Positions 7,794 through 35,184 of a DNA stretch of 43,652 nucleotides are shown one piece after another. The position numbers were made by a program, and so were the translations under genes. Positions within the stretch are counted from its first letter, which is position 1, and the number at the start of each line of letters is the position of its first letter. The notes under the pieces were generated by a model, which was given only the letters and a program-made list of their open reading frames with translations, was not told where the DNA came from and did not search any database. Origin of the DNA: Chloroflexi bacterium OHK40 (GTDB lineage Bacteria; Chloroflexota; Chloroflexia; Chloroflexales; Chloroflexaceae); NCBI GenBank assembly GCA_004367505.1, contig SFCB01000195.1, forward strand, positions 1 through 43,652, written 5' to 3'.

Positions 7794-8315
7794 ATGAGCG
7801 GAACGCGGCGGCCAATTGCGCTGGTGGGGCTGAGTGGTGCAGGGAAGTCGACCACGGCGCGGGCCCTGGCTGCCCGGCTGGGCTGGCCGGTTGTTGACAC
7901 GGATGCCTGTGTGGCTGAGCGGGCCGGGCGCCCCGTGGCGGCGATCTTCGGCGAGCAGGGCGAGGACTACTTCCGCGAGCTCGAGGCCATGACGCTCGCC
8001 GAGGCCCTCACGGCGGGTCCCCGGGTCGTGGCCACCGGCGGGGGGGTCGTGCTGCGGGCCGCGAGCCGGGCACTGCTGCGCGAACGGGCCTTCGTGGCCT
8101 GGCTCGACGCGCCCGACCTGGCGCTGATCGAGCGGCTCCGGACCGATGCCGACGAGCGCCCCCTGCTTGCCGGCGACGCGCTCGCCCGCCTGGCCATTAT
8201 GCGCGCCGCCCGCGCGCCGCTCTACGCCGAGGTGGCCCACCTCACCGTGCAGACTGCGGGCCTTAGCCCGGGCGAAGTGGCCGCGCTCATTCTGAGGGAT
8301 TACGGCGAAGATTAG
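7794..8315 (+). CDS. aroK: shikimate kinase
   Basis: A 173-aa P-loop kinase that phosphorylates shikimate at the 3-hydroxyl with ATP in chorismate synthesis (cytoplasm). Visible are Walker A GLSGAGKST (residues 12-20), the Mg/shikimate Asp motif VVDTDACV, FGEQGEDYFRELE (substrate-binding Arg), ATGGGVVLR (Gly-rich shikimate loop) and the lid DADERPLL. Length is typical. ATG 7794 has GAGGTGG just upstream. No other aro gene is adjacent; mutS follows after 100 bp with its own promoter. Confidence 0.96.
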   Translation: MSGTRRPIALVGLSGAGKSTTARALAARLGWPVVDTDACVAERAGRPVAAIFGEQGEDYFRELEAMTLAEALTAGPRVVATGGGVVLRAASRALLRERAFVAWLDAPDLALIERLRTDADERPLLAGDALARLAIMRAARAPLYAEVAHLTVQTAGLSPGEVAALILRDYGED

Positions 8316-8323
8316 TACATGTG

Positions 8324-8332
8324 TGCTATACT
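8324..8332 (+). promoter_or_regulatory. extended -10 promoter of mutS
   Basis: TG-C-TATACT lies between aroK and mutS, about 80 bases before the mutS ATG. No -35 match lies at 17 bp, so it is an extended -10 type. The same nonamer recurs at 32840, 36652 and 41899. Confidence 0.55.
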
Positions 8333-8415
8333 GTACTGACACCCCTCGATTGGTGATAGGGACGCCGCGTGAGACCCCGGGGACGAGCCTGTACGTGTGA
8401 GCCGGAGTATGTCCG

Positions 8416-11400
8416 ATGGCAAAGATCACCATCCACGCCTGGTACCGCCAGTATCGCAAGCTCAAGGAGCAGGCCGCCGACGCCATCCTGCTCTTTCGCT
8501 TCGGCGACTTTTACGAGACGTTCGACGACGATGCCAAGCTCGTGGCCGAGTTGCTGGATGTCGTGCTCACGCGCAAGGACTACGCCGTTGATAAGAGCCA
8601 GCCCAGGGAGGCCCAGAAGCTCTATGCGCCCATGGCTGGCATGCCGTACCACGCCGTCGAGCGCTACGTAAGCGAACTGGTAGGTCGGGGCTACCGGGTG
8701 GCGATCGCGGAGCAGCTCACCGAGACGGAGGCGAGCCGCAGCGATACCCGGCCACGCTCGATCTTTGCCGCTGGCATCCAGCCGGGCGCGCCGGGCGAAA
8801 TCGAGCGTGGCATGGTCCACCGCGAGATCGTGCGGGTGATCACTCCGGGTACCGTGGTGGACCAGTCGATGCTCGCCGCGACGGCCAATACCTATCTGGC
8901 CGCCGTGATCGCCGACGATGAGGCGCTCGGCCTGGCCTATGCCGATCTGAGCACCGGCGAGTTTGCCTGCGCCGAGTTCGGCGGCGAGCGTGCGCATACC
9001 CAGCTCCAGGCCGAGCTCGCCCGGCTACAGGCCGCCGAGGTCCTCGTGCCCGACGTGGAGGGCCTGCGCCTGCCCGGGCTCGCGCCCGCCGAGGCCCGCC
9101 TGACCCAAGACCTCGCCCCGCTGACGAAGGGCGAGCGCGATGTGCTGCTGCCCCATGAGCGCGTGGCCCGCCGGCTGGATCGTGAGAGCGCCGCCCGCTG
9201 GACGCGCGGCCACGTTACGGCCTGGCCTGCCTGGCGCTGGGATCTGGCCGAGGCCCGCGAGACGCTTCAGCGCCAGCTTCGGGTGGCCTCACTGGCCGCC
9301 TTCGGCCTGGATGCTCGTCCCCTCGCCGCACGGGCTGCCGGCGCCCTGCTCCAATACGTCCACGAGACGCAACGCCACCAGGCCCCCCAGCTCAGCACCC
9401 TGCGGGTCTACACGACCAGCAGCTTCATGTTTCTCGACCCGCAGACGCGCCGGAACCTGGAGTTGCTGGAGCCCAGCCGTCAAGGCGGGAAGACCTCGCT
9501 CGTGGGCGTGCTCGACCGCACCCGCACGCCGATGGGGGCCCGTCTGCTACGCCGCTGGATCGCCCAGCCCCTGCTTGAGCTCGAGCCGCTCCTGGCTCGT
9601 CAGGCTGCCGTGGCCCATCTCGTGGACGAGACGCTGCTCCGTGCCGCCCTGCGCGAGGCCCTCGGCCCCGTGGGCGACATGGAGCGAGCCCTCAACCGGA
9701 TCGCCCAGGGCCCTGCCGTCGCCACCCCCCGCGATATGGTGCAACTCCGCGCCAGCCTCCGCGCCCTGCCGGCCGTACTGGAGGCTGCTGGCGCGGCGAT
9801 TGGCACGCTGATCCCGGAGGAGACAGGCAGTCTGCGGGAGCCGGCGCGTCCGCGCCCGGACGCTCACGTAGCGCGCGGGGATCTCGCTTCCCCGCCGCCG
9901 GACGCGGAAGCAGAGGAGGACCTGTTTGGCGATGAGGAATCTCAGGCGCACCTTACGCCCGTCGCCGATCTCCAGGCGCCACTCCTCGATCCCTGCGCCG
10001 ACCTGCTGGCGCTGCTGGAGCGGGCCCTGGACGATGACCCGCCGGCGCTGCTCGGCGCCTCCAACTACTTGAAGGTGGCTGAGGAGGGCGGCGAGCGTCC
10101 GCGCCGCGTGATCCGGTCGGGCTATGAGCCGCGCATCGACGCGCTGGTGCGGGCCAGCCGCCACGCCCAGGAGTTCATCGACCGGCTTGAAGGGCGGGAA
10201 CGCGAGCGTACCGGCATCCGCTCGCTGAAAGTGGGCTACAACAACGTCTTCGGCTACTTCATCGAGGTGTCGCGCAGCGCCGATGAGAAGCTCATCCCAC
10301 GGGACTACGAACGCAAGCAGACCCTGGTGGGCGCCGAGCGCTATATCACCGCAGAGCTGAAGGAGTACGAGCAGATCATCGATCGGGCCAGGCTCCAACT
10401 GAGCGACCTGGAGCGCGAAGCCTTTGGCCGGCTCTGTGAGGCAGTGGCGGCGGCGGTGCCCCGCCTGCGGCTGGTGGCCCGGCAGCTAGCCCAGCTCGAT
10501 GCGCTCGCTTCGCTGGCTGAGGCCGCCGTGCGCGGGCGCTACACCCGGCCGGAGCTGAACGAGAGCACTGCCCTGCGGATCGTTGGCGGTCGCCACCCGG
10601 TAGTGGAGCAGGTGCTCGACGAAGCCTTCGTGCCCAACGACGTCACCCTCGATACCGAAGACGCCCAGTTGCTGATCATCACCGGCCCGAACATGGCCGG
10701 TAAGAGCACTGTCCTGCGGCAGGTGGCGCTGATCGTGCTGATGGCCCAGATCGGCTCCTTCGTGCCCGCCGAGCAGGCCGAGGTGGGGCTGGTGGACAGG
10801 ATCTTCACCCGCATCGGCGCCCAGGACGACATCGCTACGGGCCAGAGCACCTTTATGGTGGAGATGACCGAGACGGCGGCGTTGCTGCTGCAGAGCACCA
10901 GGCGCAGCCTGATCATCCTCGATGAGGTCGGCCGTGGCACCTCCACGTACGACGGCATGGCGATCGCGCGGGCGGTGGTAGAGTACATCCACAATGAGCC
11001 GCGCCTCCAGTGTCGCACGCTCTTTGCCACCCACTACCACGAGCTCACTGCCCTGGAGGGCGAGCTGGCTCGGGTGCGCAACTATCATATGGCCGCCGTC
11101 GAGCAGGAGGGCCAGGTCGTCTTTCTGCACCAGCTGCGGCGGGGCGGGGCCGATCGCTCCTACGGCATCCACGTGGCTGAGCTGGCGGGCATTCCCCGCA
11201 GCGTGATCCGCCGGGCAAGCGAGTTGCTGGCCGAGTTGGAGGGCCATCGGGCTCGCAGAGGTCAGGGGAATCCGGGGCCAGGGGGCCAGGAGCCGGAGGT
11301 GACGGCGCACAACGGCGCGGCGAGTGGCCGGCCCGCCCGCGCGAGCCGGGCGGGCGGGTCCCGGTCGCCGGATGCTGGCCGCCAGTCGTCGGGCGCGCAG

Positions 11401-17396: not shown

Positions 17397-17405
17397 ATTG
17401 TAGCA
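17397..17405 (-). promoter_or_regulatory. extended -10 promoter of the GNAT gene
   Basis: TG-C-TACAAT on the minus strand, about 36 bases before the chosen start at 17361. It lies between two divergent genes. Confidence 0.5.
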
Positions 17406-17446
17406 TGGCGCTGGGGACCCGCCCGTGCTGCCCGGAGATCGCGACC

Positions 17447-18277
17447 ATGCCGGAGAATCCAACGAACGCGCCCGATGCCCTGCCCGCCACCGTCGAGTCG
17501 CTGCGGGGCGACCTCGCCGCCCTCGGTGTGGAGCCAGGGATGACCCTGCTCGTCCACTGTTCCCTCAGCAAGCTCGGCTGGGTCTGCGGCGGAGCGGTGG
17601 CGGTGATCCTGGCGCTGGAGGAGTTGCTCGGCCCCGAGGGCACCCTGGTGATGCCCACCCACAGCGGCGATCTCTCCGAACCCTCGGCCTGGGTTGCGCC
17701 ACCTGTCCCCGCAGCCTGGTGGCCGATCATCCGCGCGACGATGCCGGCCTTCGACCCCGATCTGACGCCGAGCCGCAAGATGGGTGTGGTGGCCGAGACC
17801 TTCCGGCGCCAGCCGGGCGTGCTGCGCAGCGCCCACCCGCAGGTCTCGTTTGCGGCCTGGGGGCGCCACGCCGCATTCGTCACCGCCGATCACCGGCTGG
17901 AGGTGAGCCTGGGCGAGGGCTCGCCGATCGCCCGGATCTATGAGCTCGACGGCTTCGTGCTGCTGCTCGGGGTGGGCCACGGCAACAACACCTCGCTGCA
18001 CCTTGCCGAATACCGGGCCGCACTGCCGGGGCAACGGCGCATCACCACCGGAGCTCCCATGCTCGTGGACGGCGAGCGCCGCTGGGTGACCTTCGACGAC
18101 GTGGACTGGCGCGACGACGACTTTCCGCAGCTCGGCGCTGATTTCGCCGCCGACACCGGCCTGGAGCGCCGTGGGCGCGTTGGCCAGGGCCAGGCCATTC
18201 TGGTGCCGCAACGGCCGCTGGTAGACTATGCCGTGGCCTGGATGGAGCGCTTTCGTGGCGCGGGAGCTGAGCGATGA
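17447..18277 (+). CDS. AAC(3)-family N-acetyltransferase-like protein
   Basis: A 276-aa protein of the family named for aminoglycoside 3-N-acetyltransferase: [48 protein letters not shown] and [19 protein letters not shown]. These regions bind acetyl-CoA and the amine substrate. Many chromosomal members in environmental bacteria have no shown role in resistance, and the operon context (RraA-family protein, beta-glucosidase) does not suggest one. ATG 17447 has GGAG upstream; the ATG at 17405 would overlap the divergent promoter. The stop overlaps the next start (ATGA). Confidence 0.85.
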
Positions 18278-20330: not shown

Positions 20331-20353
20331 GGTGGAGCTCCTGGAGCTCCGCC
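20331..20353. repeat. leader inverted repeat between the two operators
   Basis: Two copies of the palindrome GGAGCTCC (20334-20341 and 20343-20350) separated by one T. With flanking bases they form a stem of about 11 pairs in the leader RNA. Role unknown. Confidence 0.45.
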
Positions 20354-20365
20354 TGGTCTATACCA
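20354..20365. promoter_or_regulatory. operator 2, DasR/NagR-like
   Basis: TGGTCTATACCA is an 11-of-12 match to the DasR core TGGTCTAGACCA. It shares TATACCACCCTA with operator 1, 76 bp upstream, and lies 27 bp before the gntR start. Two sites this far apart could allow cooperative binding or looping. Confidence 0.7.
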
Positions 20366-20391
20366 CCCTAGCGTGCTTTTCAGGGGAAGCC

Positions 20392-21132
20392 ATGGCGACG
20401 ATCGACAAGGAGAGCGCGGTCCCGATCTACCTGCAGCTCAAGCGCCTGATCGAGCGACAGGTGATCAACGGCAGCCTGCAGCCGCACAGCCGCATCCCCT
20501 CGGAGCGGGAGCTGAGCGAGCAATTCGACATCAGCCGCATGACGGCGCGGCGGGCGTTGCTCGAACTCACCCGGGAGGGCTGGATCTACACCAGCGTCGG
20601 CAAGGGCACCTTCGTCGCCGAGCCCAAGATCAGCCAGAGCCTCCAGGCGCTCACCAGCTTCAGCGAGGACATGCGCGCGCGTGGGCTGCGCCCGAGCGCG
20701 GCGCTCCTGCGCCATGCCATGCAGCCGGCCGACGACGAGGTGGCCGCTGGCCTGCGCATCCCTGCGGAGACGGCGGTGCTCTGCGTGGAGCGCCTGCGCA
20801 TGGCCGATGTGGAGCCCATGGCACTGGAGCGGGCGCACTACCACTTCCCGGGCATGGAGGAGTTGCTCAGCAGCAGCCTGGATGGCTCGATCTACGAGCT
20901 GCTGCGCGAGCGCTTCCGGATCATCCCCACCGAGGCGATCCAGGAGTTTGAGGCCCGGCTGGCTACGCCCCCCGAGCAGGAGTTGCTGCGGGTGAGCGCG
21001 GGCGCGCCGGTGCTGACGATCGCCCGCACGACGTTCGACAGCGCCGGCCGGCCCTTCGAGTTCGTGCGCTCCGTGTACCGTGCCGACCGTTACCGCTTCG
21101 TGGCCAGGCTCATTCGGGAGGGCGAGCGATGA
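20392..21132 (+). CDS. GntR-family regulator, HutC/UTRA (DasR/NagR-like)
   Basis: A 246-aa transcription factor. A winged helix-turn-helix lies at about residues 8-75 (PIYLQLKRLIERQVINGSL, RIPSERELSEQFDISRMTARRALLELTREGWIYTSVGKGTFV), followed by a UTRA effector domain (QALTSFSEDMRARGLRPSA to the C-terminal RTTFDSAGRPFEFVRSVYRADRYRFV). The best-known relatives, DasR and NagR, release DNA on binding GlcNAc-6-P or GlcN-6-P, both made by this operon. Two matching operators lie in front of it, so it probably represses its own operon. ATG 20392 has GGGGAA upstream; 20 more in-frame codons upstream run through operator 2 and are not family-like. The stop overlaps nagZ (ATGA). Confidence 0.95.
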   Translation: MATIDKESAVPIYLQLKRLIERQVINGSLQPHSRIPSERELSEQFDISRMTARRALLELTREGWIYTSVGKGTFVAEPKISQSLQALTSFSEDMRARGLRPSAALLRHAMQPADDEVAAGLRIPAETAVLCVERLRMADVEPMALERAHYHFPGMEELLSSSLDGSIYELLRERFRIIPTEAIQEFEARLATPPEQELLRVSAGAPVLTIARTTFDSAGRPFEFVRSVYRADRYRFVARLIREGER

Positions 21133-22673
21133 GCGCCCACCCGCGCGATCTGGCCGGGCGCGGGCTGATGATCAGCTTCCCTGGCCCGACGCTTACTCCG
21201 GCCACCGCCGAGCTCCTGGCGCGCACCCGCGCCGCCGGGGTCGTGCTCTTCGCTGGCAACATCCGTGGCCCGGCCCAGCTCGCCGAGCTCTGCGCCGCAC
21301 TGCAGGCCGAGGCGGCAGCGCTGGGTCTGCCTCCACTACTGATTGCGATCGACCAGGAGGGGGGGACGGTCAGCCGGTTGCCGGCGCCCTTTGTGGTGCC
21401 ACCGAGCCCGCAGGCGCTCGCGGCCACGGGCGACGAGCAGGCCGCTTACGCCGCCGCCCGGATCAGCGGCCTGCAACTGCGGGCCCACGGCGTGAACATG
21501 AACTTCGCGCCGGTGCTCGATGTGAACTGCAACCCGGCCAACCCGGTGATTGGCACGCGCGCCTTCGGCGCCGATGCCACCACTGTGGCGCGCTTCGGGC
21601 TGGCGGCTCTCGGTGGCTATCGCGACGCGGGCGTGATCGCGGTGGCGAAGCACTTCCCCGGCCACGGCGATACGACGGTTGACTCGCACCACGGCCTGCC
21701 GGTGCTGCCCCACGACAGCGCGCGCCTGGAGGCGCTGGAACTCGTGCCCTTCCGCGCCGCGCTCGCCGCCGGGGTGCCCGCGCTGATGAGCGCGCATGTC
21801 GTCTTTAGCGCGCTTGATGATGCCCCGGCCACGCTCTCACCCCTGGTGTTGCGCGGGCTGCTGCGCGGCCGGCTCGGCTTCGATGGGCTGATCGTCACCG
21901 ATGCGCTGGATATGGCCGCGATCGCGGGCCGCTACGGCGCGGTCGAGGCCGCAGTGCTGGCCCGCCGCGCGGGCGCCGATATCGTTTTGCCGCTCGGCGA
22001 CGCGGCCAATCAGCTAGCGGTGGCCGAGGGCCTCGCCGCCGCGATCGAGGCTGGCCGGCTCGACGCCGCCGACTTCATGGCTACCGCGCGCCGCATCGCC
22101 GACCTGAGCGCCGTCTACCACCTGGCCGCTTCGCCTCCCGCTGCCCCCGACATGGATGCCCTGGAGCGCGAAGCCGCCGCGCTGGCCCGCCGTAGCCTCA
22201 CCGTGAGTGACCGCGCCGGCCTGCTGCCACTGCCGCGCGCGGCCCGTCTCGCCGTGATCGACTGTTTGCAGCCGCGATGGAACAACGCTGAGGAGGCCAC
22301 CGATCGCTCGGCATGGCTGCGCACCCGCCTGCTGGAGCGCTTCCCCGCAGCGCAGTACTGCGCGCTGCTCCCGACGGACCCGGCCGAGGCCTGGGCCCGG
22401 GCCTCCGCCAGTGCTGGTGGTGGTGCGGCCACCCTGCTGATTACTCGCAACGCCTGGGCCGACGAGCGCCAGCAAGGCATGATTGCCGCGCTCGCGGCCA
22501 CCCCTACCCCGATCATTCATCTGGCCGCCCGTGGCCCGCAGGATGCCAGGTTGTTGGACGCGGGCGCCACCCTGCTCAGCTATGGTGACCCGCCGCTTTC
22601 GCTGGAGGCGGCGCTCGCACGGATCGCCGGGGAGCCCGGAGAGCCACGACCCGATCACCGCGCCGTGCGGTGA
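21129..22673 (+). CDS. nagZ: GH3 beta-N-acetylglucosaminidase (NagZ type)
   Basis: A 514-aa GH3 enzyme that releases terminal beta-GlcNAc, classically from GlcNAc-anhydroMurNAc muropeptides. The NagZ signature KHFPGHGDTTVDSHHGLP (residues 174-191) contains the Asp185/His187 acid-base dyad, and the nucleophile Asp258 lies in VTDALDM. IDQEGGTVSRL is the substrate loop. Residues about 340-514 form a second, GH3-C-like domain, as in two-domain NagZ proteins of Gram-positive bacteria. No signal peptide is visible, so it acts in the cytoplasm after import. The ATG overlaps the gntR stop; the lipoprotein gene follows after 35 bp. Confidence 0.93.
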   Translation: MSAHPRDLAGRGLMISFPGPTLTPATAELLARTRAAGVVLFAGNIRGPAQLAELCAALQAEAAALGLPPLLIAIDQEGGTVSRLPAPFVVPPSPQALAATGDEQAAYAAARISGLQLRAHGVNMNFAPVLDVNCNPANPVIGTRAFGADATTVARFGLAALGGYRDAGVIAVAKHFPGHGDTTVDSHHGLPVLPHDSARLEALELVPFRAALAAGVPALMSAHVVFSALDDAPATLSPLVLRGLLRGRLGFDGLIVTDALDMAAIAGRYGAVEAAVLARRAGADIVLPLGDAANQLAVAEGLAAAIEAGRLDAADFMATARRIADLSAVYHLAASPPAAPDMDALEREAAALARRSLTVSDRAGLLPLPRAARLAVIDCLQPRWNNAEEATDRSAWLRTRLLERFPAAQYCALLPTDPAEAWARASASAGGGAATLLITRNAWADERQQGMIAALAATPTPIIHLAARGPQDARLLDAGATLLSYGDPPLSLEAALARIAGEPGEPRPDHRAVR

Positions 22674-22708: not shown

Positions 22709-24175
22709 ATGAAGCGTCGTTCGTACGTCGCCCTGCTGCTCGTACTGCTGACCGGCCTCGTACTGGCTGCATGCGGCAGCGCGCCCGCCGCCGAGCCGAC
22801 CACCGCGCCCGCCGCGAGCGAGCCCACCAGCGCGCCCGCCGCGCCAACTCAGGCACCCACGGAGGCCCCCGCGCCGACGGAAGCCCCCGCGCCGACCGAG
22901 GCCGCCGCGCAGCCTACTGCCGGCACGGCCGCCGACGCCGAAGACGACATCCGGGTGAGCACCAGCGGCTATCAGGGGACGCTGAACTACTGGGTGCTTG
23001 GCTTTACGCCCGGCAACCAGTTCGCCACACCTATGGAGCAGGCCATCGCGAAGTTCGAGGAGGCCAACCCCGGCATCGATGTGGAGATTATCGGCTACCC
23101 GCCGAACGACGAGGGCTTCACCAAGCTCAATACCGCTGTCCAGAGTGGCCAGGGCGTCGATGTGCTGCGCCTGCCCTCGGACCGCCTGCTGGCCTTTGCT
23201 GCCGAGGGCCTGGTGGCGCCGATCGACGACTACATGACCGAGGAGGATATCGCCGACTACTACCCCAATGTGCTCGACCGCGTGCGGGTGACGGGCGACG
23301 GCAGGGCCTACGCCTGGCCGCTCTGGGTGGTGCCCATGGGCATGTACCTCAACGTCGATGTCTTTGAGGAGCGGGGCGTGACTCTGCCGCCGAAGGACTG
23401 GACCTGGGACCAGTTCGTGGAGACGGCCAAACAGCTTACCTTCACCCGTGACAATGGTGAGCAGGTGTACGGCTGGGCCGGCTTCGTCGATCCCGGCGTG
23501 GTCAACACCTGGGGCCTGTTCATGAATGAGTCGCCGAATGTCCAGCCCCTGGTTGAGAACAACACTAAATTTGGCCTGGATACCCCTGAGGCCACCGCCG
23601 CCATCCAGCGCTACGCCGACCTTGCCCTGGTGCATAAGGTCACGCCTCCCGACTTCGGGGCCATGGCCGACGCCGATGTGAAGGGTGGCTTCACCACCGG
23701 CCAGATCGCCATGATCGTGGACGCCACCGGCCCGGCGGCCCAGTTCCGCGCCGACGGTGTGAACTTCGAGATCTACCCCATTCCGAGTGTGAACGGCTAC
23801 ACCACCACGGTTGGCGCCGTTGGCCTGATCGCGGTGGTGGAGACCGATGACACCGCCCGCAAGCAGGCCGGTATGGACCTGGCCCGCTACCTCACCAGCG
23901 CGGCGGTGCAGGAAGATGTGCCTCCCAGCGATACCGCCCCGGTGGGCTTCTACCTCGCGCCCGGCGCGCGCGCCTCGGTGCAGGTGGCCCCGCCGCTGGA
24001 CCAGTTCCTGCCCTTTGTGGAGTATATGTACGTCACCCCGATCATCAGGCCCTGGTCGGAGTTTACCCGCCTGGTGCATCCCGCGCTGCAGAACGTGATC
24101 TTCGGCGAGCAGACGGCCGAGGAGGCCATGACCGCGATCGCGCCGGAGGTGAACGCGCTCCTGGCAGATGAGTAG
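22709..24175 (+). CDS. ABC sugar-binding lipoprotein (family 1)
   Basis: A 488-aa binding protein. The N-terminus MKRRSYVALLLVLLTGLVLAAC carries a lipobox (LAAC, acylated Cys22). Residues about 27-75 form an Ala/Pro/Thr/Glu linker, then a periplasmic-binding-protein fold: TPMEQAIAKFEEANPGIDVEIIGYP, a WPLWVVPMGMYLNVDVFEE substrate-cleft segment and GGFTTGQIAMIVDATGPAAQF. Family-1 proteins bind di- and oligosaccharides. From the operon, the ligand is inferred to be a GlcNAc-containing sugar such as GlcNAc-anhydroMurNAc or chitobiose. ATG 22709 has AAGGAGG upstream. A G-rich element begins at its stop codon. Confidence 0.95.
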   Translation: MKRRSYVALLLVLLTGLVLAACGSAPAAEPTTAPAASEPTSAPAAPTQAPTEAPAPTEAPAPTEAAAQPTAGTAADAEDDIRVSTSGYQGTLNYWVLGFTPGNQFATPMEQAIAKFEEANPGIDVEIIGYPPNDEGFTKLNTAVQSGQGVDVLRLPSDRLLAFAAEGLVAPIDDYMTEEDIADYYPNVLDRVRVTGDGRAYAWPLWVVPMGMYLNVDVFEERGVTLPPKDWTWDQFVETAKQLTFTRDNGEQVYGWAGFVDPGVVNTWGLFMNESPNVQPLVENNTKFGLDTPEATAAIQRYADLALVHKVTPPDFGAMADADVKGGFTTGQIAMIVDATGPAAQFRADGVNFEIYPIPSVNGYTTTVGAVGLIAVVETDDTARKQAGMDLARYLTSAAVQEDVPPSDTAPVGFYLAPGARASVQVAPPLDQFLPFVEYMYVTPIIRPWSEFTRLVHPALQNVIFGEQTAEEAMTAIAPEVNALLADE

Positions 24176-24298: not shown

Positions 24299-25252
24299 GT
24301 GACAACCGTTGAGAAGATCGACCCTCAGGCTGCACCTCAGCGGGAGCGCGGGGCCACTGCATCGCTCCGCCGCTTCGCGCGCCGCCACGGCTGGAGCTAC
24401 GTCTTTGTTGTGCCCAGCCTGATCACCTTCACTCTCTTCACCCTCATCCCGGTGCTGTGGTCGTTCGTGATCTCGTTTCAGCGCTTCAGCCTGGCCCGTG
24501 GCGGGCAGTGGCAAGACCCGCTCTGGGAGAACTATATCGACGCCTTCACCAAGCAGGGTGGGGTTTTTGTCGTCGCCATTCAGAACACGCTGATCTACAG
24601 CTTCTTCACGGTGATCGCCAACATCCTCTTCGGGCTGGTGCTGGCGAGCCTGATCCAGCCGCTCTCCAACCGGCTAAAGACCTTTTTTCGGGCCGCCTAC
24701 TACCTGCCGGCGGTCACCTCGGCGCTGATCATCGGCATGACGTGGCGCTACATCTTCAATGCGCAGTGGGGCTTCGCCAACTATCTGCTGCGCCTGGCGG
24801 GGATGGAGCCGGTGCGCTGGCTCTCCGACCCCGACATTGCTCTGACCAGTGTCACCCTCTCGGCGGTACTGACGATGCCGGCCACGGCGGTGGTGCTCTT
24901 CAGCGCGGCGATGGGGAGCATCCCTGCGGAATACTACGAGGCCGCCGAGCTCGACGGCGCCGGCCCGATGATGCGCTGGTGGCGGATCACGGTGCCGTTG
25001 ATCCGCTCCACCACCCTCTACCTGGTCGTGCTCTACACGATCGCGAGCTTCGAGGTCTTTGAGCGGGTGTACGCGATGGTGCCGAGTGGTGTGGGCAATA
25101 GCACCCAGACGATCGTGACCCAGATTTATAACAACGGCTTCAAGGATCTGGACTTCGGTGTGGCCTCGGCTCAGGCGTTTATCCTCTTTCTGATGATCGC
25201 TGCGCTGGCCGTGGTGCAGTTCCGGGCGCTCAAGAGCGATGTGGAGTACTAG
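24299..25252 (+). CDS. ABC sugar permease, MalF type
   Basis: A 317-aa inner-membrane protein with six hydrophobic segments. The EAA loop that docks the ATPase reads EYYEAAELDGAGPMMRWWRITVPLI (about residues 215-240). The N-terminus (30 residues, charged) is cytoplasmic. It pairs with the next gene to form the translocation path for the sugar captured by the lipoprotein. GTG 24299 is preceded by GAGGAAAGGAG. The gap of 123 bp to the binding-protein gene is the largest inside the operon and holds a G-quadruplex and hairpin. Confidence 0.94.
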   Translation: MTTVEKIDPQAAPQRERGATASLRRFARRHGWSYVFVVPSLITFTLFTLIPVLWSFVISFQRFSLARGGQWQDPLWENYIDAFTKQGGVFVVAIQNTLIYSFFTVIANILFGLVLASLIQPLSNRLKTFFRAAYYLPAVTSALIIGMTWRYIFNAQWGFANYLLRLAGMEPVRWLSDPDIALTSVTLSAVLTMPATAVVLFSAAMGSIPAEYYEAAELDGAGPMMRWWRITVPLIRSTTLYLVVLYTIASFEVFERVYAMVPSGVGNSTQTIVTQIYNNGFKDLDFGVASAQAFILFLMIAALAVVQFRALKSDVEY

Positions 25253-25330
25253 GGACCTTCCGGCGGGGCGTTTGGACCGGTGGCGTGGGGTAATCTGGTA
25301 GCTGGGCACGTGTGGAGGAGGGGCGCGCGT

Positions 25331-26185
25331 ATGGCAGTGGCATCGATGAGGCGACGGGCGGGCGGCAGGCGCAGCAGGCTCCCCTGGACAGGGTGGGTGG
25401 TGCTGGTCGTGACCTCGGTGATAGCGCTCTTCCCGATGTACTGGCTCTTCGTGAACGCGCTCACGCCGATCACCTCGAACCCGCCGCTCACGCCCATCCT
25501 CTGGCCGGCGTGGAGCCTCGACAACTTCCGGCGGCTGCTGGATGGCAACGTCTACTACGTCAACTGGATGCTCAATAGCCTGGTCATCGCGCTGGCGATC
25601 ACGGTCTGGCACGTGATCTTCGATAGCATGGCCGGCTATGCCTTCGCCAAGCGGCGTTTCCCCGGGCGCGAGGTGCTGTTCTGGCTGATGCTCAGTACGC
25701 TGATGATCCCCATCCACGTGACGGTGATCCCGCTCTTCATCGTGACCAATCGCCTCGGGCTGATCGACAACATCCTGGCGGTGATTCTGCCGGGCACCGC
25801 CAATGCTTTCGGGATCTTCCTGATGCGCCAGTACATCCAGACGTTGCCCTCGGAGCTGGAGGAGGCGGCCCGAATCGACGGCGCCAGTGAGCTGCAAGTC
25901 TTCTGGAACGTGATCCTGCCGCTCGCGCGGCCGGCCCTGGGGGCGCTGGCGATCTTTACTTTTGTGCGCCACTGGAACGACTTTCTCTGGCCGCTGATCG
26001 CGCTCACCCGCCCGCAGAACTATACGCTCACGGTGGGCGTGGCTAACCTGCAGGGCGAGTTCGCCACCGACTACGGGGTAATCTTCGCCGGTGCCGCCCT
26101 GGCCGCTCTGCCGATGATCGCGTTCTTCTTCGTCTTCCAGCGGCAGTTCCTCGAAGGGGTGCGGATGGGAGCGGTCAAGGGGTGA
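25331..26185 (+). CDS. ABC sugar permease, MalG type
   Basis: A 284-aa protein with six hydrophobic segments and the EAA motif ELEEAARIDGASELQVFWNVILPLARPAL. FPMYWLFVNALTP after the first segment is typical of MalG-type permeases, and the C-terminus FQRQFLEGVRMGAVKG is the family's usual end. ATG 25331 is chosen with GGAGGAGG upstream; the frame is open from 25280 with no similarity in those 17 codons, and ATG 25346 is another possibility. No ATPase gene lies in this operon; the UgpC/MsiK-type protein at 34078 is the likely partner. Confidence 0.93.
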   Translation: MAVASMRRRAGGRRSRLPWTGWVVLVVTSVIALFPMYWLFVNALTPITSNPPLTPILWPAWSLDNFRRLLDGNVYYVNWMLNSLVIALAITVWHVIFDSMAGYAFAKRRFPGREVLFWLMLSTLMIPIHVTVIPLFIVTNRLGLIDNILAVILPGTANAFGIFLMRQYIQTLPSELEEAARIDGASELQVFWNVILPLARPALGALAIFTFVRHWNDFLWPLIALTRPQNYTLTVGVANLQGEFATDYGVIFAGAALAALPMIAFFFVFQRQFLEGVRMGAVKG

Positions 26186-26218
26186 GCCAGAGCGCGACGA
26201 ACGCGAAGGGATGTGTGT

Positions 26219-27250
26219 ATGGAGCGGGTTGGGGTGGCGCTGATTGGGGCGGGGGTGTTTGGGGAGCGACACGCGCAGGCGTATAGCCGCCACCACGGGG
26301 TGACGTTTGTGGCGGTGTGTGATCTGAACACCGAGCGGGCGCAGGCGGTAGCCGGGCGCTATGGCGCCCACTATGCCACCGGCGATTATCGTCAGGTGCT
26401 GGCCGATCCGGCGGTGCGGGCGGTGTCGATCGCGTTGCCCGACCATCTGCACCGTGAGGTGGCCGTGGCCGCAGCTCGGGCCGGCAAGGATCTGCTCGTG
26501 GAGAAGCCGCTCGCCACCACGGTGGAAGACGCCGAGGCGATTGTGGCAGCTGCCGAGCAGGCTGGAGTGCGCCTGATGGTGGATTTCCACAACCGGGTCA
26601 ATCCGCCGATGGTCAGTGCCCGCGATGCGATCCAGCGTGGGGTCATCGGACAGCCAAGCTATGTCTATGCCCGCCTCAGCAATACGACGCTGGTCCCCAC
26701 CGAGATGCTGCGCTGGGCCGGCCAGTCCTCGGCGCTCTGGTTCCTCGCCAGCCACATGGTGGACGTGGTGCGCTGGATGCTTGACGACGAGCCCGCCAGG
26801 GTCTATGCGGTGCGCCGCGATGGGGTGTTGCGGGAACTGGGCGTGGATACGGCCGATTTCCACGTGGCGACGGTGGAGTTCCGTGGCGGCGCAGTGGCGG
26901 TGTTTGAGCACGCCTGGATCTTGCCCCGTAGCCAGGCTACGGTGAAGGACCTGAAGCTGGAGATCCTCGGTAGCCATGGTCAGATCAATATCGATGGCTC
27001 CCATCACCGTACACTGGAGATCTACAGCGCGGATACGGCGAGCTTCCCCGACCTGCTGGCGCCCCCCACAGGCGAGCATCTGACCGGTTTTGTGCTCGAT
27101 AGCATCGCCTACTTTGTGGACATGCTCACCCGCGACGCTCCGCCCCTGGCTACCGGCGCCGATGGGGTCGCCGTTACGCGCATCCTCTGTGCGATCGAGG
27201 AGTCGGCGCGGCAGCGGATGCCGGTGGAATTGTCCCCTGTCCCCTACTGA
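26219..27250 (+). CDS. Gfo/Idh/MocA-family oxidoreductase
   Basis: A 343-aa NAD(P)-dependent sugar dehydrogenase-like protein. The Rossmann motif is VALIGAGVFGERHAQAY (residues 7-22), the acidic residue after beta-2 is in AVCDLNTER, and EKP (95-97) is the family's catalytic-lysine motif. A second domain begins VDFHNRVNPPM and includes WFLASHMVDVVRWML. Typical reactions oxidise a ring hydroxyl of a cyclic sugar, and GH109 relatives use NAD for glycoside hydrolysis; the substrate here is unknown, but its place between the importer and anmK suggests an amino sugar. ATG 26219 is preferred over GTG 26213 because GAAGGGA is correctly spaced. The last few codons lie in a repeat shared with 24171-24187. 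Confidence 0.9.
   Translation: MERVGVALIGAGVFGERHAQAYSRHHGVTFVAVCDLNTERAQAVAGRYGAHYATGDYRQVLADPAVRAVSIALPDHLHREVAVAAARAGKDLLVEKPLATTVEDAEAIVAAAEQAGVRLMVDFHNRVNPPMVSARDAIQRGVIGQPSYVYARLSNTTLVPTEMLRWAGQSSALWFLASHMVDVVRWMLDDEPARVYAVRRDGVLRELGVDTADFHVATVEFRGGAVAVFEHAWILPRSQATVKDLKLEILGSHGQINIDGSHHRTLEIYSADTASFPDLLAPPTGEHLTGFVLDSIAYFVDMLTRDAPPLATGADGVAVTRILCAIEESARQRMPVELSPVPY
27232..27248 (-). repeat. inverted copy of the GGGGACA repeat at the oxidoreductase C-terminus
   Basis: The reverse complement of 27232-27248 is identical over 17 bases to 24171-24187, which spans the stop codon of the binding-protein gene. In this copy the repeat supplies the last codons (SPVPY) of the oxidoreductase. Confidence 0.8.
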
Positions 27251-27259
27251 GAGCGAACG

Positions 27260-28462
27260 ATGCGCATCGTTGGCCTGATGGCGGGCACATCGCTGGACGC
27301 GATCGACGCGGCGCTGGTGGAGCTTGAGCCGGTGGATCCGCCGGGGACGCTGCGCATGGCCGTGCGCGCCTTCGCCATGCTGCCCTTCGCCGAGGAGTTA
27401 CGGGAGCAGGTGCGGACGTTGTTGCCGCCGGCGCGGGGCTCCACTGCTGAGGTTTGCGCGGTCAACTTCCTGCTGGGCGAGGCCTTTGCCGAGGCCGCCA
27501 TGCGGGTGATCGCCGATGCCGGATTCCGGCCTGACCAGGTCGATCTGGTTGCCTCCCACGGCCAGACCGTCTACCATCAGGTGGCGCCAGGTGAGCTGCG
27601 CAGCACGCTGCAGATCGGGGCGCCTGCGGTGATCGCGGCGCGCACCGGGCGTACGGTAGCCAGCGACTTTCGTCCGGCCGATATGGCCCGTGGCGGAGAG
27701 GGCGCACCGCTCGTCCCTTATCTGGACGCGCTGCTCTTCGCGCACGCAACGCTGCGACGCGCGGTACAGAACATTGGCGGGATCGGCAACGTGACCTACC
27801 TCGCGCCCGGCCAGCCCGTCCGGGCCTTCGATACCGGCCCCGGCAATGTGCTGATCGACGAGGCCGTGCGCTATCTCAGCGGTGGTGCGCGCGCCTTCGA
27901 TGAGGACGGCCGGATGGCCGCTGCTGGCCGGATCGACGAAGGGTTGCTCGACGAGTTGATGGCTCATCCCTACTTCGACCGCCCGCCGCCACGCTCGACC
28001 GGCCGCGAGCTGTTCGGCCCCGCCGAGGCCCGGGCACTTGTTGAGCGCGCCACCGCCAGGGGCTTACGTCCGGAGGATACCGTGGCGACGCTCACCGCGC
28101 TGACCGCCTGGAGCATCGCCGAGAGCTACCAGCGCTTCTGCGGTCCGGTCGACGAGGTACTGCTCGCCGGAGGCGGCGCCCGTAACCTCACGCTCAGGGC
28201 CATGATCGCCGCCGCGTTGCCCGAGGCCCGGGTGCGTGTGGCCGATGAGCTCGGCCTCGACGCCGATGCCAAGGAGGCTGTGGCCTTCGCCGCCCTCGGC
28301 TACGCCTGCCTGCACGGCTACCCCTCCAGCCTGCCCGCCGCCACCGGGGCGCGCGCCCCCGCCGTGCTCGGCAGTATCACCCCGGGTGACAACTACCGCG
28401 CCCTGATCGCCCGTGTTGCCGCCACGCCAGCTCAGCCGCCAGAGCGGATGGTGCTGGCGTAG
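27260..28462 (+). CDS. anmK: anhydro-N-acetylmuramic acid kinase
   Basis: A 400-aa AnmK, which hydrolyses the 1,6-anhydro bond of anhydroMurNAc and phosphorylates it to MurNAc-6-phosphate with ATP. Visible are GLMAGTSLDAIDAALVEL (ATP loop, residues 5-22), VASHGQTVYHQ, QIGAPAVIAARTGRTVASDFRPADMARGGEGAPLVPY, NIGGIGNVTYL, and FDTGPGNVLID with Asp191 at the place of the E. coli catalytic Asp182. AnhydroMurNAc arises only from lytic transglycosylase action on peptidoglycan, so this gene ties the operon to cell-wall turnover. Length is slightly above the usual 370 aa because of the C-terminal tail. It follows the oxidoreductase by 9 bp. Confidence 0.97.
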   Translation: MRIVGLMAGTSLDAIDAALVELEPVDPPGTLRMAVRAFAMLPFAEELREQVRTLLPPARGSTAEVCAVNFLLGEAFAEAAMRVIADAGFRPDQVDLVASHGQTVYHQVAPGELRSTLQIGAPAVIAARTGRTVASDFRPADMARGGEGAPLVPYLDALLFAHATLRRAVQNIGGIGNVTYLAPGQPVRAFDTGPGNVLIDEAVRYLSGGARAFDEDGRMAAAGRIDEGLLDELMAHPYFDRPPPRSTGRELFGPAEARALVERATARGLRPEDTVATLTALTAWSIAESYQRFCGPVDEVLLAGGGARNLTLRAMIAAALPEARVRVADELGLDADAKEAVAFAALGYACLHGYPSSLPAATGARAPAVLGSITPGDNYRALIARVAATPAQPPERMVLA

Positions 28463-28505
28463 CTCGTGTGCGCCGCCCTGCACCCCTGTGGATCTGGAGA
28501 ACCGT

Positions 28506-29411
28506 GTGACCGAGTACACTCCGCTGACCGAAGCCAATAACCCCGCCACCCGGGCGATCGATAGCCTGAGCGCCGCCGAGATCGTGGCGCTGATCAATGC
28601 CGAGGATCGCAAGGTAGCCGAAGCGGTGGCGGCTGTGGGCGGCGCGATCGCTACCCTGGCTGAGTTGACGGCCGAGCGCATCCGGCGCGGCGGCAGGCTG
28701 ATCTACATCGGCGCGGGCACCTCGGGCCGGCTCGGTGTGCTCGACGCCGCTGAGTGTCCCCCGACCTTCAGCACTCCGCCCGAGCTGGTGCTCGGCCTGA
28801 TTGCCGGGGGTCCACGCGCCCTCACGAGCGCCGTCGAGGCCGTCGAGGATGACCCGGCAAGCGGCGCCGCCGATATTGCCGCCGCCGGGGTTGGTAGTGC
28901 CGACGTGGTGGTGGGCCTTGCGGCCAGTGGCCGTACGCCCTATGTGCTTGGCGCCGTAGCCGAGGCCAGGCGCCGTGGCGCCTTCGCCGCCGGGGTTGCG
29001 TGCTCTCACCCCTCGCCGCTCGGCGATGCCGTCGAGTTGATCATCGCGCCGATCGTCGGGCCGGAGGTGATCGCTGGCTCCACCCGCATGAAGGCAGGCA
29101 CCGCCGAGAAACTGGTGCTCAACACGCTCAGCACCTGCGTGATGGTGCTGCTCGGCAAAACCTACGGCAACCTGATGGTCGATCTCCAGCCGCTCAACGA
29201 GAAGTTGCGCCGGCGGGCGGTGGGCATCGTGGCCAGCGCCACCGGGCTGGGGCAGGAGCAGGCCCGCGCCGCCCTGGCCGTGGCCGGTGATGTGAAGACG
29301 GCGATCGTGATGGTACTTGCTGGTATCGACCGGGACGAAGCCCGCCGTCGTCTCGCCGCGAGCGGCGGGCACGTTCGCCCCGCGCTCGGTGGGTGTGGAC
29401 CGTTGGGTTAG
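28506..29411 (+). CDS. murQ: N-acetylmuramic acid 6-phosphate etherase
   Basis: A 301-aa MurQ, which removes D-lactate from MurNAc-6-phosphate to give GlcNAc-6-phosphate. The sugar-isomerase (SIS) domain has GRLIYIGAGTSGRLGVLDAAECPPTF and VGLAASGRTPYVLGAV, and the later GPEVIAGSTRMKAGTAEKLVLN. The catalytic acids Glu83 and Glu114 of E. coli MurQ fall at exactly the same numbers here. Start: GTG 28506 with GGAG seven bases upstream gives the standard length; the frame is open 31 codons earlier but without similarity. It takes the AnmK product directly. Confidence 0.97.
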   Translation: MTEYTPLTEANNPATRAIDSLSAAEIVALINAEDRKVAEAVAAVGGAIATLAELTAERIRRGGRLIYIGAGTSGRLGVLDAAECPPTFSTPPELVLGLIAGGPRALTSAVEAVEDDPASGAADIAAAGVGSADVVVGLAASGRTPYVLGAVAEARRRGAFAAGVACSHPSPLGDAVELIIAPIVGPEVIAGSTRMKAGTAEKLVLNTLSTCVMVLLGKTYGNLMVDLQPLNEKLRRRAVGIVASATGLGQEQARAALAVAGDVKTAIVMVLAGIDRDEARRRLAASGGHVRPALGGCGPLG

Positions 29412-29441
29412 GGCTACGGCACGGCGCGGGACATGCATTCC

Positions 29442-30359
29442 ATGAGCGAGCTCCTCCTTGGTATCGATGGTGGCGGAAGCAACACCCGCGCGCTCCTGGC
29501 CAGCCTCGACGGCACCGTGCTCGGGCGCGGCTACGCCCCATCGAGCAACCTCCAGTCGGTTGGCTTCCCGGCGGCCACCGCCGCCATCCGCCAGGCGATC
29601 GCCGCAGCGTTCGATGCGGCCGGGATCGCCGCCGACACCCCGATCGCCGCAGCCTGCCTTGGCCTGGCCGGGGTGGGCCGCCCGGCTGACCACACCCGGA
29701 TAGCCGCGTGGATTGAGCACGAGGCGATCGCGCGCCGTAGCGCCATCGTCACCGACGCCGAGCCGGTGCTTGCAGCCGGTACCCCGGAGGGCTGGGGCGT
29801 GGCCCTGATCAGTGGTACCGGCTCGGTCTGCGTTGGGCGGGACAGGCAGGGCCGCGCGGTGCAGGTGGGCGGCTGGGGCTATCTGCTTGGCGATGAGGGC
29901 AGCGGCTACGATCTGGCCATCCGTGCATTGCGCCTGGCCACCCAGACGGCCGATGGCCGGGCTGAGGCCCACGCCTTGCTGGACGCGGTGCTGCGCCACT
30001 GGAACCTCGCCGCGCCTGTCGACCTGGTGGGCCACGTCTACCGCACCGCGATTATGCGTCCGGCAATCGCCGACCTGACGCGACCGGTAGTGGCGCTGGC
30101 CGCGCAGGGCGATCGCGACGCGCTCGATTTGCTCGAAGGGGCCGCCGTCGAACTGGCTCGCGCCGCGCGCGTGGCCGCCCGTCGGCTGGGCTTGCACGAG
30201 CCTCCAGTGGCTCTCGCCGGTGGCCTGCTTGGCGCCAGCCCCGAGCTGCGCGCAGCGCTTGCCGAGTGCCTGGGGCCAGGCTGGGGCCCGCTGCGGTACG
30301 TTGACGACCCGGCCCTCGGCACGCTCGTACTGGCCCGCCGGCTGCTCACGGAGAGCTGA
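29442..30359 (+). CDS. BadF/BcrA-type kinase, probable N-acetylglucosamine kinase
   Basis: A 305-aa actin-fold ATPase of the BadF/BadG/BcrA/BcrD family. Phosphate-binding loops are LLGIDGGGSNTRALLA (residues 5-20) and ALISGTGSVCVGRDRQG; the GlcNAc-kinase segment GGWGYLLGDEGSGYDLAIRALR is present, and VALAGGLLGASPELRAAL is the adenosine motif. It should phosphorylate the GlcNAc freed by NagZ to GlcNAc-6-phosphate; MurNAc kinase activity, known in relatives, is also possible. ATG 29442 is preferred; the ATG at 29433 is only two bases from the GGGAC site. The stop is 2 bp before nagA. Confidence 0.9.
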   Translation: MSELLLGIDGGGSNTRALLASLDGTVLGRGYAPSSNLQSVGFPAATAAIRQAIAAAFDAAGIAADTPIAAACLGLAGVGRPADHTRIAAWIEHEAIARRSAIVTDAEPVLAAGTPEGWGVALISGTGSVCVGRDRQGRAVQVGGWGYLLGDEGSGYDLAIRALRLATQTADGRAEAHALLDAVLRHWNLAAPVDLVGHVYRTAIMRPAIADLTRPVVALAAQGDRDALDLLEGAAVELARAARVAARRLGLHEPPVALAGGLLGASPELRAALAECLGPGWGPLRYVDDPALGTLVLARRLLTES

Positions 30360-30361
30360 AG

Positions 30362-31546
30362 ATGCGCTTCGTCCTGAACAATTGCCGCCTGATCGATGCA
30401 ACGGGCACTCGGCCCGGCCCGCTGCTCGTGGATGCCGGGCGGATCGCGGCGATCGGCGGCATCTACGAGGTTCCAGCGCTCGACCTGGGTGGGGCACTCG
30501 TGGCGCCTGGCTTCGTAGACGTGCACACTCATGGCGGCGGCGGCTACAGCCTGCACACCGAGCATCCCGACGAGATCCGCGCCTACGCGGCCTGGGCCCC
30601 CTCGACTGGGGTCACAGCCTTTCTCGCCGGGATCGTCGGCGTGCCCGGCGGGTTGCCCGAGACCCAGATCCGGGCGGCCCTGGCTGCTGCCACCGGGCCC
30701 GCTGCCGGCGCCGAACTGGCTGGAATGCATCTCGAGGGGCCGTATATCAACGTGGCTCGCCGTGGTGCCCACGCGCCAGAGTGGCTGCGCGTGCCTGATC
30801 CGGCGGAGACCGAGCGACTGCTGGAGCTGGCTGGCAGCCACCTGCGCATCATCACCGTGGCCCCGGAGTTGCCGGGCGCCAAGGCCATGATTCGCCGGCT
30901 CGTTGCCGCCGGGGTGACGGTGAGCCTGGGCCATACCGACGCCACCTACGAGCAGACCCGGGCGGCCATCCCGCTCGGTCTCACCCACGCCACCCACTGC
31001 TTCAATGCGATGCGCCCGCTCCATCACCGCGAGCCCGGGCCGCTTGGAGCGATCGTCGAAGACGCGCGGGTGAGCGGCGAGCTAATCGCCGACGGCGTTC
31101 ACGTACACCCGGCCGCGCTGCGCCTGCTGCTGCGCGCCCTGGGCCCGGATCGCGTCATCGTCGTCACCGATGCGCTCTCCTGTGCCGGTCTGCGCGACGC
31201 CGTCTTTAGCTTCGGCGGCCAGCCCGCGCGCGTTGTGGATGGCGTGGCCAGGCTTGCCGACGGCACCCTCACCGGCAGCGTGCTGACGATGGATCGCGCC
31301 CTGCGCAACCTGGTTGGAATGCTGGCCCTGCCTTTATCCGATGCCCTGGCCGCATTGAGCGCCAACCCGGCCCGCGCTGCCGGGCTCGCCCATCGCAAGG
31401 GCCTGTTGCGCGCCGGCTATGATGCCGATCTGATCGTCCTCGATGAGACGCTCACGCTCCAGGCCACCTTCTGCCGTGGCATCCTGGCCTACGCGGCCGA
31501 GGCCTTCCGGCGGCGCCACCCGCAGCTCCAAATCGCGCCCGGGTAA
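30362..31546 (+). CDS. nagA: N-acetylglucosamine-6-phosphate deacetylase
   Basis: A 394-aa amidohydrolase that removes acetate from GlcNAc-6-phosphate, giving glucosamine-6-phosphate. Metal and catalytic residues are visible: HTH (His55, His57) in VDVHTHGGGG, Glu125 in HLEGPY, His191 in LGHTDA, His209/His212 in LTHATHCFNAM, the substrate loop IADGVHVHP and the catalytic Asp270 in VVTDAL. It is the last enzyme of the operon and joins the MurNAc and GlcNAc branches. No nagB lies in the window, so the product may go back to UDP-GlcNAc as well as to glycolysis. A GC-rich hairpin follows the stop. Confidence 0.97.
   Translation: MRFVLNNCRLIDATGTRPGPLLVDAGRIAAIGGIYEVPALDLGGALVAPGFVDVHTHGGGGYSLHTEHPDEIRAYAAWAPSTGVTAFLAGIVGVPGGLPETQIRAALAAATGPAAGAELAGMHLEGPYINVARRGAHAPEWLRVPDPAETERLLELAGSHLRIITVAPELPGAKAMIRRLVAAGVTVSLGHTDATYEQTRAAIPLGLTHATHCFNAMRPLHHREPGPLGAIVEDARVSGELIADGVHVHPAALRLLLRALGPDRVIVVTDALSCAGLRDAVFSFGGQPARVVDGVARLADGTLTGSVLTMDRALRNLVGMLALPLSDALAALSANPARAAGLAHRKGLLRAGYDADLIVLDETLTLQATFCRGILAYAAEAFRRRHPQLQIAPG

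Positions 31547-34077: not shown

Positions 34078-35184
<1,107 letters not shown>

Follow-up and report, generated by a model that had tools for sequence, protein, structure and literature searches.

An oxidoreductase gene within a MurNAc salvage operon

The window, which is the whole 43,652-nt stretch of Chloroflexi bacterium OHK40 DNA analysed here, carries a run of genes in the order GntR regulator, NagZ-like GH3, solute-binding protein, two permeases, Gfo/Idh/MocA oxidoreductase (GFO), AnmK, MurQ, BadF-type kinase and NagA-like amidohydrolase (Table 1). Judged by its predicted products, which bring together MurQ, a MurNAc-6-phosphate-forming kinase and an importer, this run is a MurNAc salvage operon. 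The BadF-type kinase belongs to the same Pfam family as MurK of Tannerella (PMC5790795). The operon is predicted to be able to convert anhydroMurNAc, through AnmK, and free MurNAc, through the kinase, to MurNAc-6-phosphate for MurQ, a route free of redox steps. The operon genes include no AP_endonuc_2 lyase, SDR or second Gfo, and NamZ is absent from the window genome. The importer's run encodes no ATPase, and a MalK-type ATPase at 34078-35184, 2.5 kb downstream of the operon, is likely the missing one. A gene for an aminoglycoside 3-N-acetyltransferase-family protein (PF02522) lies at 17405-18277, upstream of a GH1 gene.

Table 1 Features of the operon in the window
Feature	Position	Strand	Evidence
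GntR/UTRA regulator, operon head	20332..21132	+	PF07702, PF00392
GH3, NagZ-like beta-N-acetylhexosaminidase	21129..22673	+	PF00933; NF003740 above cut-off
Importer solute-binding protein (SBP)	22709..24175	+	PF01547/PF13416; co-segregates with GFO
ABC sugar importer permease A (PermA)	24299..25252	+	PF00528; co-segregates with GFO
ABC sugar importer permease B (PermB)	25280..26185	+	PF00528; 33-bp gap to GFO; co-segregates with GFO
GAAGGGA, Shine-Dalgarno-like	26205..26211	+	7 bases 5' of GFO ATG at 26219; sequence
Gfo/Idh/MocA oxidoreductase (GFO), 343 aa	26219..27250	+	Open ORF; Pfam; K96, H179, F175, N125, N155, H231, D35
AnmK, anhydroMurNAc kinase	27260..28462	+	PF03702 3.2e-111; NCBIfam NF007148 above cut-off; 9-bp gap after GFO
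MurQ, MurNAc-6-phosphate etherase	28506..29411	+	TIGR00274 346 bits (cut-off 302); start from simple home-made gene caller, longest ORF begins 28413
BadF/BcrAD-type MurNAc/GlcNAc kinase (MurK/NagK-like)	29433..30359	+	PF01869
Amidohydrolase, NagA-like by position	30362..31546	+	PF01979; NagA identity inferred

The GFO gene is intact, with a GTG at 26213 as the longest alternative start. Its product is a member of the Gfo/Idh/MocA superfamily, in which both the Rossmann domain (PF01408, 1.5e-31, 110 bits; cut-off 24) and the C-terminal domains (PF22725, 67.2 bits, cut-off 27; PF02894, 66 bits, cut-off 22.9) score above the Pfam cut-offs. The GxGxxG motif reads GAGVFG (10-15; G10, G12, G15) and the EKP motif is E95-K96-P97, both invariant in the orthologue clade described below. 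The first-pass annotation had placed here a Gfo/Idh/MocA protein with intact Rossmann and EKP motifs between the permeases and anmK, and reading frame, Pfam domains, motifs and neighbours all agree with it. Because about 20 relatives from this superfamily are encoded in the window genome, a single GFO beside a sugar importer is unremarkable alone. Two antisense ORFs, at 24674-27079 (-, 801 aa) and 28377-30497 (-, 706 aa), span the permeases, GFO and MurQ; they were rejected as genes, their composition fitting high-GC read-through.

Linkage of the orthologue clade to murQ and the importer

The proteins of 80 related loci were extracted and a maximum-likelihood tree was built. All 10 tree rows with MurQ near GFO fall in a single 18-row clade (support 100/99), and none in the 51 sister rows. 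Counted over independent loci (the window and 15 others, with second copies from the same genomes left out), murQ is present in the flanking DNA of 9 of the 16 clade loci versus 0 of 51 sister loci (Fisher p = 2.7e-7, uncorrected for kinship); flank lengths differ between loci, so that murQ absence near GFO may reflect short contigs, and genes were called by a simple script that gives approximate starts. Clade loci with no murQ in the flanking DNA include Devosia ZB163 L025, Alsobacter L027 and Caldilineaceae L023, L026, L032 and L020. At genome level, 14 of the 15 clade genomes searched contain a MurQ-like match scoring 258 bits or more (10 above the curated cut-off), and one clade genome (G105) has no MurQ at all. 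Clade members come from Chloroflexota, Hyphomicrobiales/Acetobacteraceae and Actinomycetota, and murQ linkage is seen in Chloroflexota, Hyphomicrobiales and Actinomycetota. Since isolates are among them (Devosia insulae DS-56, Microbacterium, Jiangella endophytica), a MAG artefact is ruled out. The recurrence of GFO beside murQ in three phyla is thus above chance, and the clade and murQ statistics rule out GFO as a chance neighbour of MurNAc genes. The clade is rare: only the window genome among 400 Chloroflexota has a member at E <= 1e-125, and only 1 of 398 Microbacterium-family genomes at E <= 1e-100. Plasmid records gave no match at 60% identity or above, and the matches obtained are probably sister-clade members only.

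Gene order varies among the clade loci. In Microbacterium (L058), MurQ (8066-9046) is followed by a BadF kinase (9048-9995) and by GFO (9992-11011), whose gene overlaps that of the MurK-type kinase by 4 bp, and then by a beta-lactamase-fold (AmiE-like) hydrolase, a NagB-type protein and an FAD/FeS D-lactate-dehydrogenase-type protein; the first genes are the same in Microbacterium EST19A (L061). The order is regulator-GFO-MurQ-importer in Devosia (L024, L173), kinase-MurQ-importer-GFO at L028 and MurQ-GFO-BadF in Jiangella (L059), and GH3, NamZ and GFO lie together in Oscillochloris (L174). In Roseilinea-type Chloroflexota (L018:2096-4039 (-), matching genomes G100, G101 and G103), AnmK and MurQ occupy one ORF (724-770 codons open), so that two successive enzymes of the pathway are naturally fused. 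A xylose-isomerase-like TIM barrel (AP_endonuc_2) and a second Gfo/Idh/MocA protein are encoded near the orthologue at L018:12115-14271 (also L019, L021), the gene pair of 3-keto-sugar pathways.

The sister groups, about 43-61% identical, adjoin other importers without anmK or murQ. The first-pass annotation would have doubted a salvage role had close orthologues of known unrelated function lain beside other importers without anmK; no such close orthologues were found, the relatives with such neighbours forming this separate sister clade, of undescribed function. In the neighbouring sister group, an FGGY sugar-kinase cluster lies near the gene in 24 of 26 loci. Sister-group loci of Chloroflexota MAGs (L029:11032-12564 and similar) carry an importer, an FGGY kinase, a BtpA-family protein and an M29-type peptidase, a cluster that is an unassigned sugar pathway. 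The importer settings of the sister groups, together with the GFO-importer units lacking murQ in the flanking DNA at L025 and L027, are consistent with an importer-GFO cassette whose sugar has nothing to do with MurNAc and which is only incidentally located in MurNAc operons. This reading is nevertheless improbable, as the cassette would have had to land next to murQ repeatedly, in three phyla and with three importers only about 20-35% identical to each other, and as the GFO gene of Microbacterium is in translational overlap with that of the MurK-type kinase.

The importer and GFO share a history in Chloroflexota. For the SBP and the two permeases, identity between the window and distant GFO-bearing Roseilinea/Anaerolineae loci is 66-68%, 78-80% and 77-78%, versus 49-56%, 63-68% (one fragment of 44% length gives 76%) and 67-70% between the window and relatives of its own order lacking GFO. 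AnmK, GntR and the kinase display the opposite pattern (AnmK, 51-53% to the distant GFO-bearing loci versus 54-67% within the order). In a tree of SBP, PermA and PermB, loci with and without GFO separate with 100/100 support, and grouping by taxonomy is rejected (log-likelihood difference 255, AU 4.7e-7); the AnmK-MurQ tree rejects the grouping by GFO (log-likelihood difference 37, AU 2.5e-4). In Chloroflexota, therefore, GFO travels with a distinct importer subtype, and AnmK-MurQ has a different history. Importers at the Devosia and Microbacterium loci share only about 20-35% identity with one another. The co-inheritance of GFO with the importer subtype suggests that GFO probably acts on the importer's cargo, for which the AnmK-MurQ core would be the sink.

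GFO is tied to MurQ, a MurK-type kinase and an importer, and not specifically to anhydroMurNAc. Devosia ih3, Microbacterium CFH 31415 and Jiangella all have GFO and murQ and no convincing AnmK match (none at all in two of these genomes, a 20-bit fragment in the third). AnmK-MurQ and GFO-MurQ lie in separate clusters both in Devosia insulae (L160, L024) and in Microbacterium EST19A (L163, L061). Moreover, the closest operons function without GFO: permease B and AnmK are spaced by 10-32 bp in close relatives (L149, L150, L153), and their genomes contain no GFO match anywhere at E <= 1e-50. Of the earlier view that an unexplained redox enzyme sits in an anhydroMurNAc salvage operon with no known need for one, operon membership thus stands, with chance excluded, and the specific tie to anhydroMurNAc falls away. 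In a set of 100 relatives, 20 have AnmK and 18 have MurQ, and both genes are present in the two that carry a close GFO orthologue. Since at least 12 of 15 clade genomes have AnmK as well, the two are not complementary, and GFO as an AnmK replacement was rejected, as was GFO as a NamZ replacement, because Oscillochloris (L174) and Roseilinea (L018) have both. A GNAT-type acetyltransferase of about 160 aa is encoded between AnmK (or the permease) and MurQ in Chloroflexales operons lacking GFO (L149:6320-6820, L153:6216-6680, L155:1293-1784), and is absent from the window operon.

Active site and fold of the oxidoreductase

The predicted pocket contains K96, H179, F175, N125, N155 and the clade-typical H231. 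K96 of the EKP motif and the catalytic H179 are invariant, and the canonical Lys-Asp-His triad (DxxxH) is lacking, the stretch reading F175-L-A-S-H179; in place of the triad Asp, all 16 clade members and nearly every sister have F175. The whole clade shares H231, at a position that is mostly Asn in the sisters; this residue sits on the strand that aligns with the NSR stretch of inositol dehydrogenases, where it might contact the lactyl carboxylate. To judge from sequence, D35, which follows the second strand, suggests use of NAD over NADP. GFO scores below the equivalog cut-offs for inositol 2-dehydrogenase (TIGR04380, 164.8 bits; cut-off 355) and UDP-GlcNAc 3-dehydrogenase (NF040723, 143.3 bits; cut-off 450), and below the curated cut-off for levoglucosan dehydrogenase (NF052479, 109 bits; cut-off 650). 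In fold comparisons of an AlphaFold2 model (mean pLDDT 90, pTM 0.89), GenD2, levoglucosan dehydrogenase, anhydrofructose reductase, DgpA, inositol dehydrogenases, NanOx and NAD-dependent sulfoquinovosidases all match at Z 36-39, where dozens of family members tie, so that the fold does not discriminate between substrates. Of the two families proposed for comparison in the first-pass annotation, inositol dehydrogenases share the Lys and His with GFO, F175 departing at the triad Asp, and no GH109 entry appears among the matches listed in the sequence and fold comparisons.

The O3 of MurNAc is etherified by the lactyl group, which makes C3 oxidation impossible on this sugar, and GH4/GH109-like cleavage begins by C3 oxidation. 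Oxidation at C3, as carried out by levoglucosan dehydrogenase, GH4 and GH109, is consequently inapplicable to MurNAc itself. This weighs against GFO as an NAD-dependent, GH109/GH188-like glycosidase splitting GlcNAc-MurNAc, even though NAD-dependent sulfoquinovosidases are among its structural matches (8qc2, Z 36.9) and the Microbacterium run contains no recognised NagZ or NamZ. The lactyl ether bars MurNAc as the leaving sugar, and attack on the GlcNAc unit alone, although possible, is covered by the NagZ-like GH3 in the window, as it is by GH3 and NamZ beside GFO at L174. The glycosidase idea of the first-pass annotation is accordingly very improbable.

Proposed role in MurNAc catabolism and comparison with known systems

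GFO probably has a role in the MurNAc pathway. As to its substrate and chemistry, which we infer, our tentative assignment is that it may serve MurNAc catabolism as an accessory, NAD-dependent enzyme, handling the cargo of its partner importer before the MurK-type kinase and MurQ act. By analogy with NanOx/YjhC on 2,7-anhydro-sialic acid, a self-contained, NAD-cycling and redox-neutral adaptor is the leading candidate, though a rather uncertain one. In such a mechanism, the partner importer would deliver a muramyl sugar, of which NAD+ would oxidise a free hydroxyl, at C4 or the anomeric position because O3 is etherified. The activated intermediate would then rearrange or lose a group and be reduced back by the same NADH to plain MurNAc, from which the kinase and MurQ would make GlcNAc-6-phosphate and D-lactate. 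The levoglucosan pathway needs three partners to process its oxidised intermediate (PMC7676230), whereas the window operon has no lyase or reductase partner, which favours, without proving, self-contained NAD cycling that yields MurNAc. Against this overall assignment, some clade loci carry no murQ in the flanking DNA and G105 shows no MurQ, the triad-Asp position is Phe here and His in NanOx, Roseilinea-type loci do have the AP_endonuc_2 protein and second Gfo nearby, and the FGGY kinases adjoining sister-group relatives fit an ordinary net dehydrogenase.

Such a dehydrogenase, NAD-dependent and performing a net C1 or C4 oxidation of MurNAc, GlcNAc or another imported hexosamine, is unlikely and yet a close rival. 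The FGGY kinase clusters would be expected for ketose formation, the closest folds are plain sugar dehydrogenases nearly tied with levoglucosan dehydrogenase, and a Sinorhizobium locus (L056) carries a run of GFO, SDR, BadF kinase, SIS and NagA-like genes. However, MurQ needs the C1 aldehyde of MurNAc-6-phosphate, so that oxidised MurNAc would no longer fit it, and neither the window operon nor the Microbacterium run encodes an enzyme for an oxidised product. Returning to transient oxidation, a bolder form, in which GFO would open or rewrite a muramyl sugar without ATP, is very doubtful. AnhydroMurNAc might be oxidised at C4, lose the O6 bridge, be rehydrated and be re-reduced to MurNAc; alternatively, C1 oxidation of MurNAc might expel the lactyl ether. 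If true, this would be a new entry into MurNAc catabolism beside AnmK or MurQ, and the C1 form one kind of non-MurQ etherase. An etherase other than MurQ has been proposed for mycobacteria without a gene (PMC13041923).

The occurrence of GFO beside an importer and a MurNAc-degrading enzyme in at least three phyla points to a possible redox step in the scavenging of cell-wall sugars. MurNAc recycling is much studied and relevant to cell-wall antibiotics, and a partial literature search found no description of a redox step in MurNAc catabolism or of this GFO group. The conserved linkage to MurQ and the importer implies that some natural muramyl sugar probably needs oxidation or NAD cycling before use, and the small gene set, some of it in cultured Devosia, Microbacterium and Jiangella, is directly testable.

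Compared with AnmK/MurQ and MurK/MurQ catabolism, the window operon has the same AnmK, MurQ, MurK-type kinase, NagZ-like GH3 and NagA-like protein, and GFO is an addition to described routes that contain no redox step. The 2,7-anhydro-Neu5Ac oxidoreductase NanOx/YjhC (PMC7535918, PMC7315737) shares with GFO the superfamily, the fold (6o15, 6z3c, Z ~38), the EKP Lys and catalytic His, and a salvage cluster for an N-acetylated acidic sugar with varied importers; a transporter with a NanOx-type enzyme is a known design (PMC7535918). However, identity to GFO is only about 21-22%, NanOx has a His at the triad-Asp position (HxxH; PMC7535918) instead of Phe175, and GFO is linked to MurQ and MurK/AnmK rather than to the nan pathway. 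Levoglucosan dehydrogenase LgdA (PDB 6a3f-6a3j, PMC7676230), which acts on a 1,6-anhydro sugar, gives the best sequence match in the PDB (E 2.9e-27) and one of the best fold matches (about 28% identity), but it keeps the triad Asp, oxidises C3, which is blocked in MurNAc, and needs LgdB1, LgdB2 and LgdC, which the window operon lacks. IolG/scyllo-inositol dehydrogenase (PMC5969746) likewise shares the fold, the NAD Rossmann motif and the triad Lys and His, whereas GFO has Phe for the triad Asp and lies in an amino-sugar rather than an inositol context.
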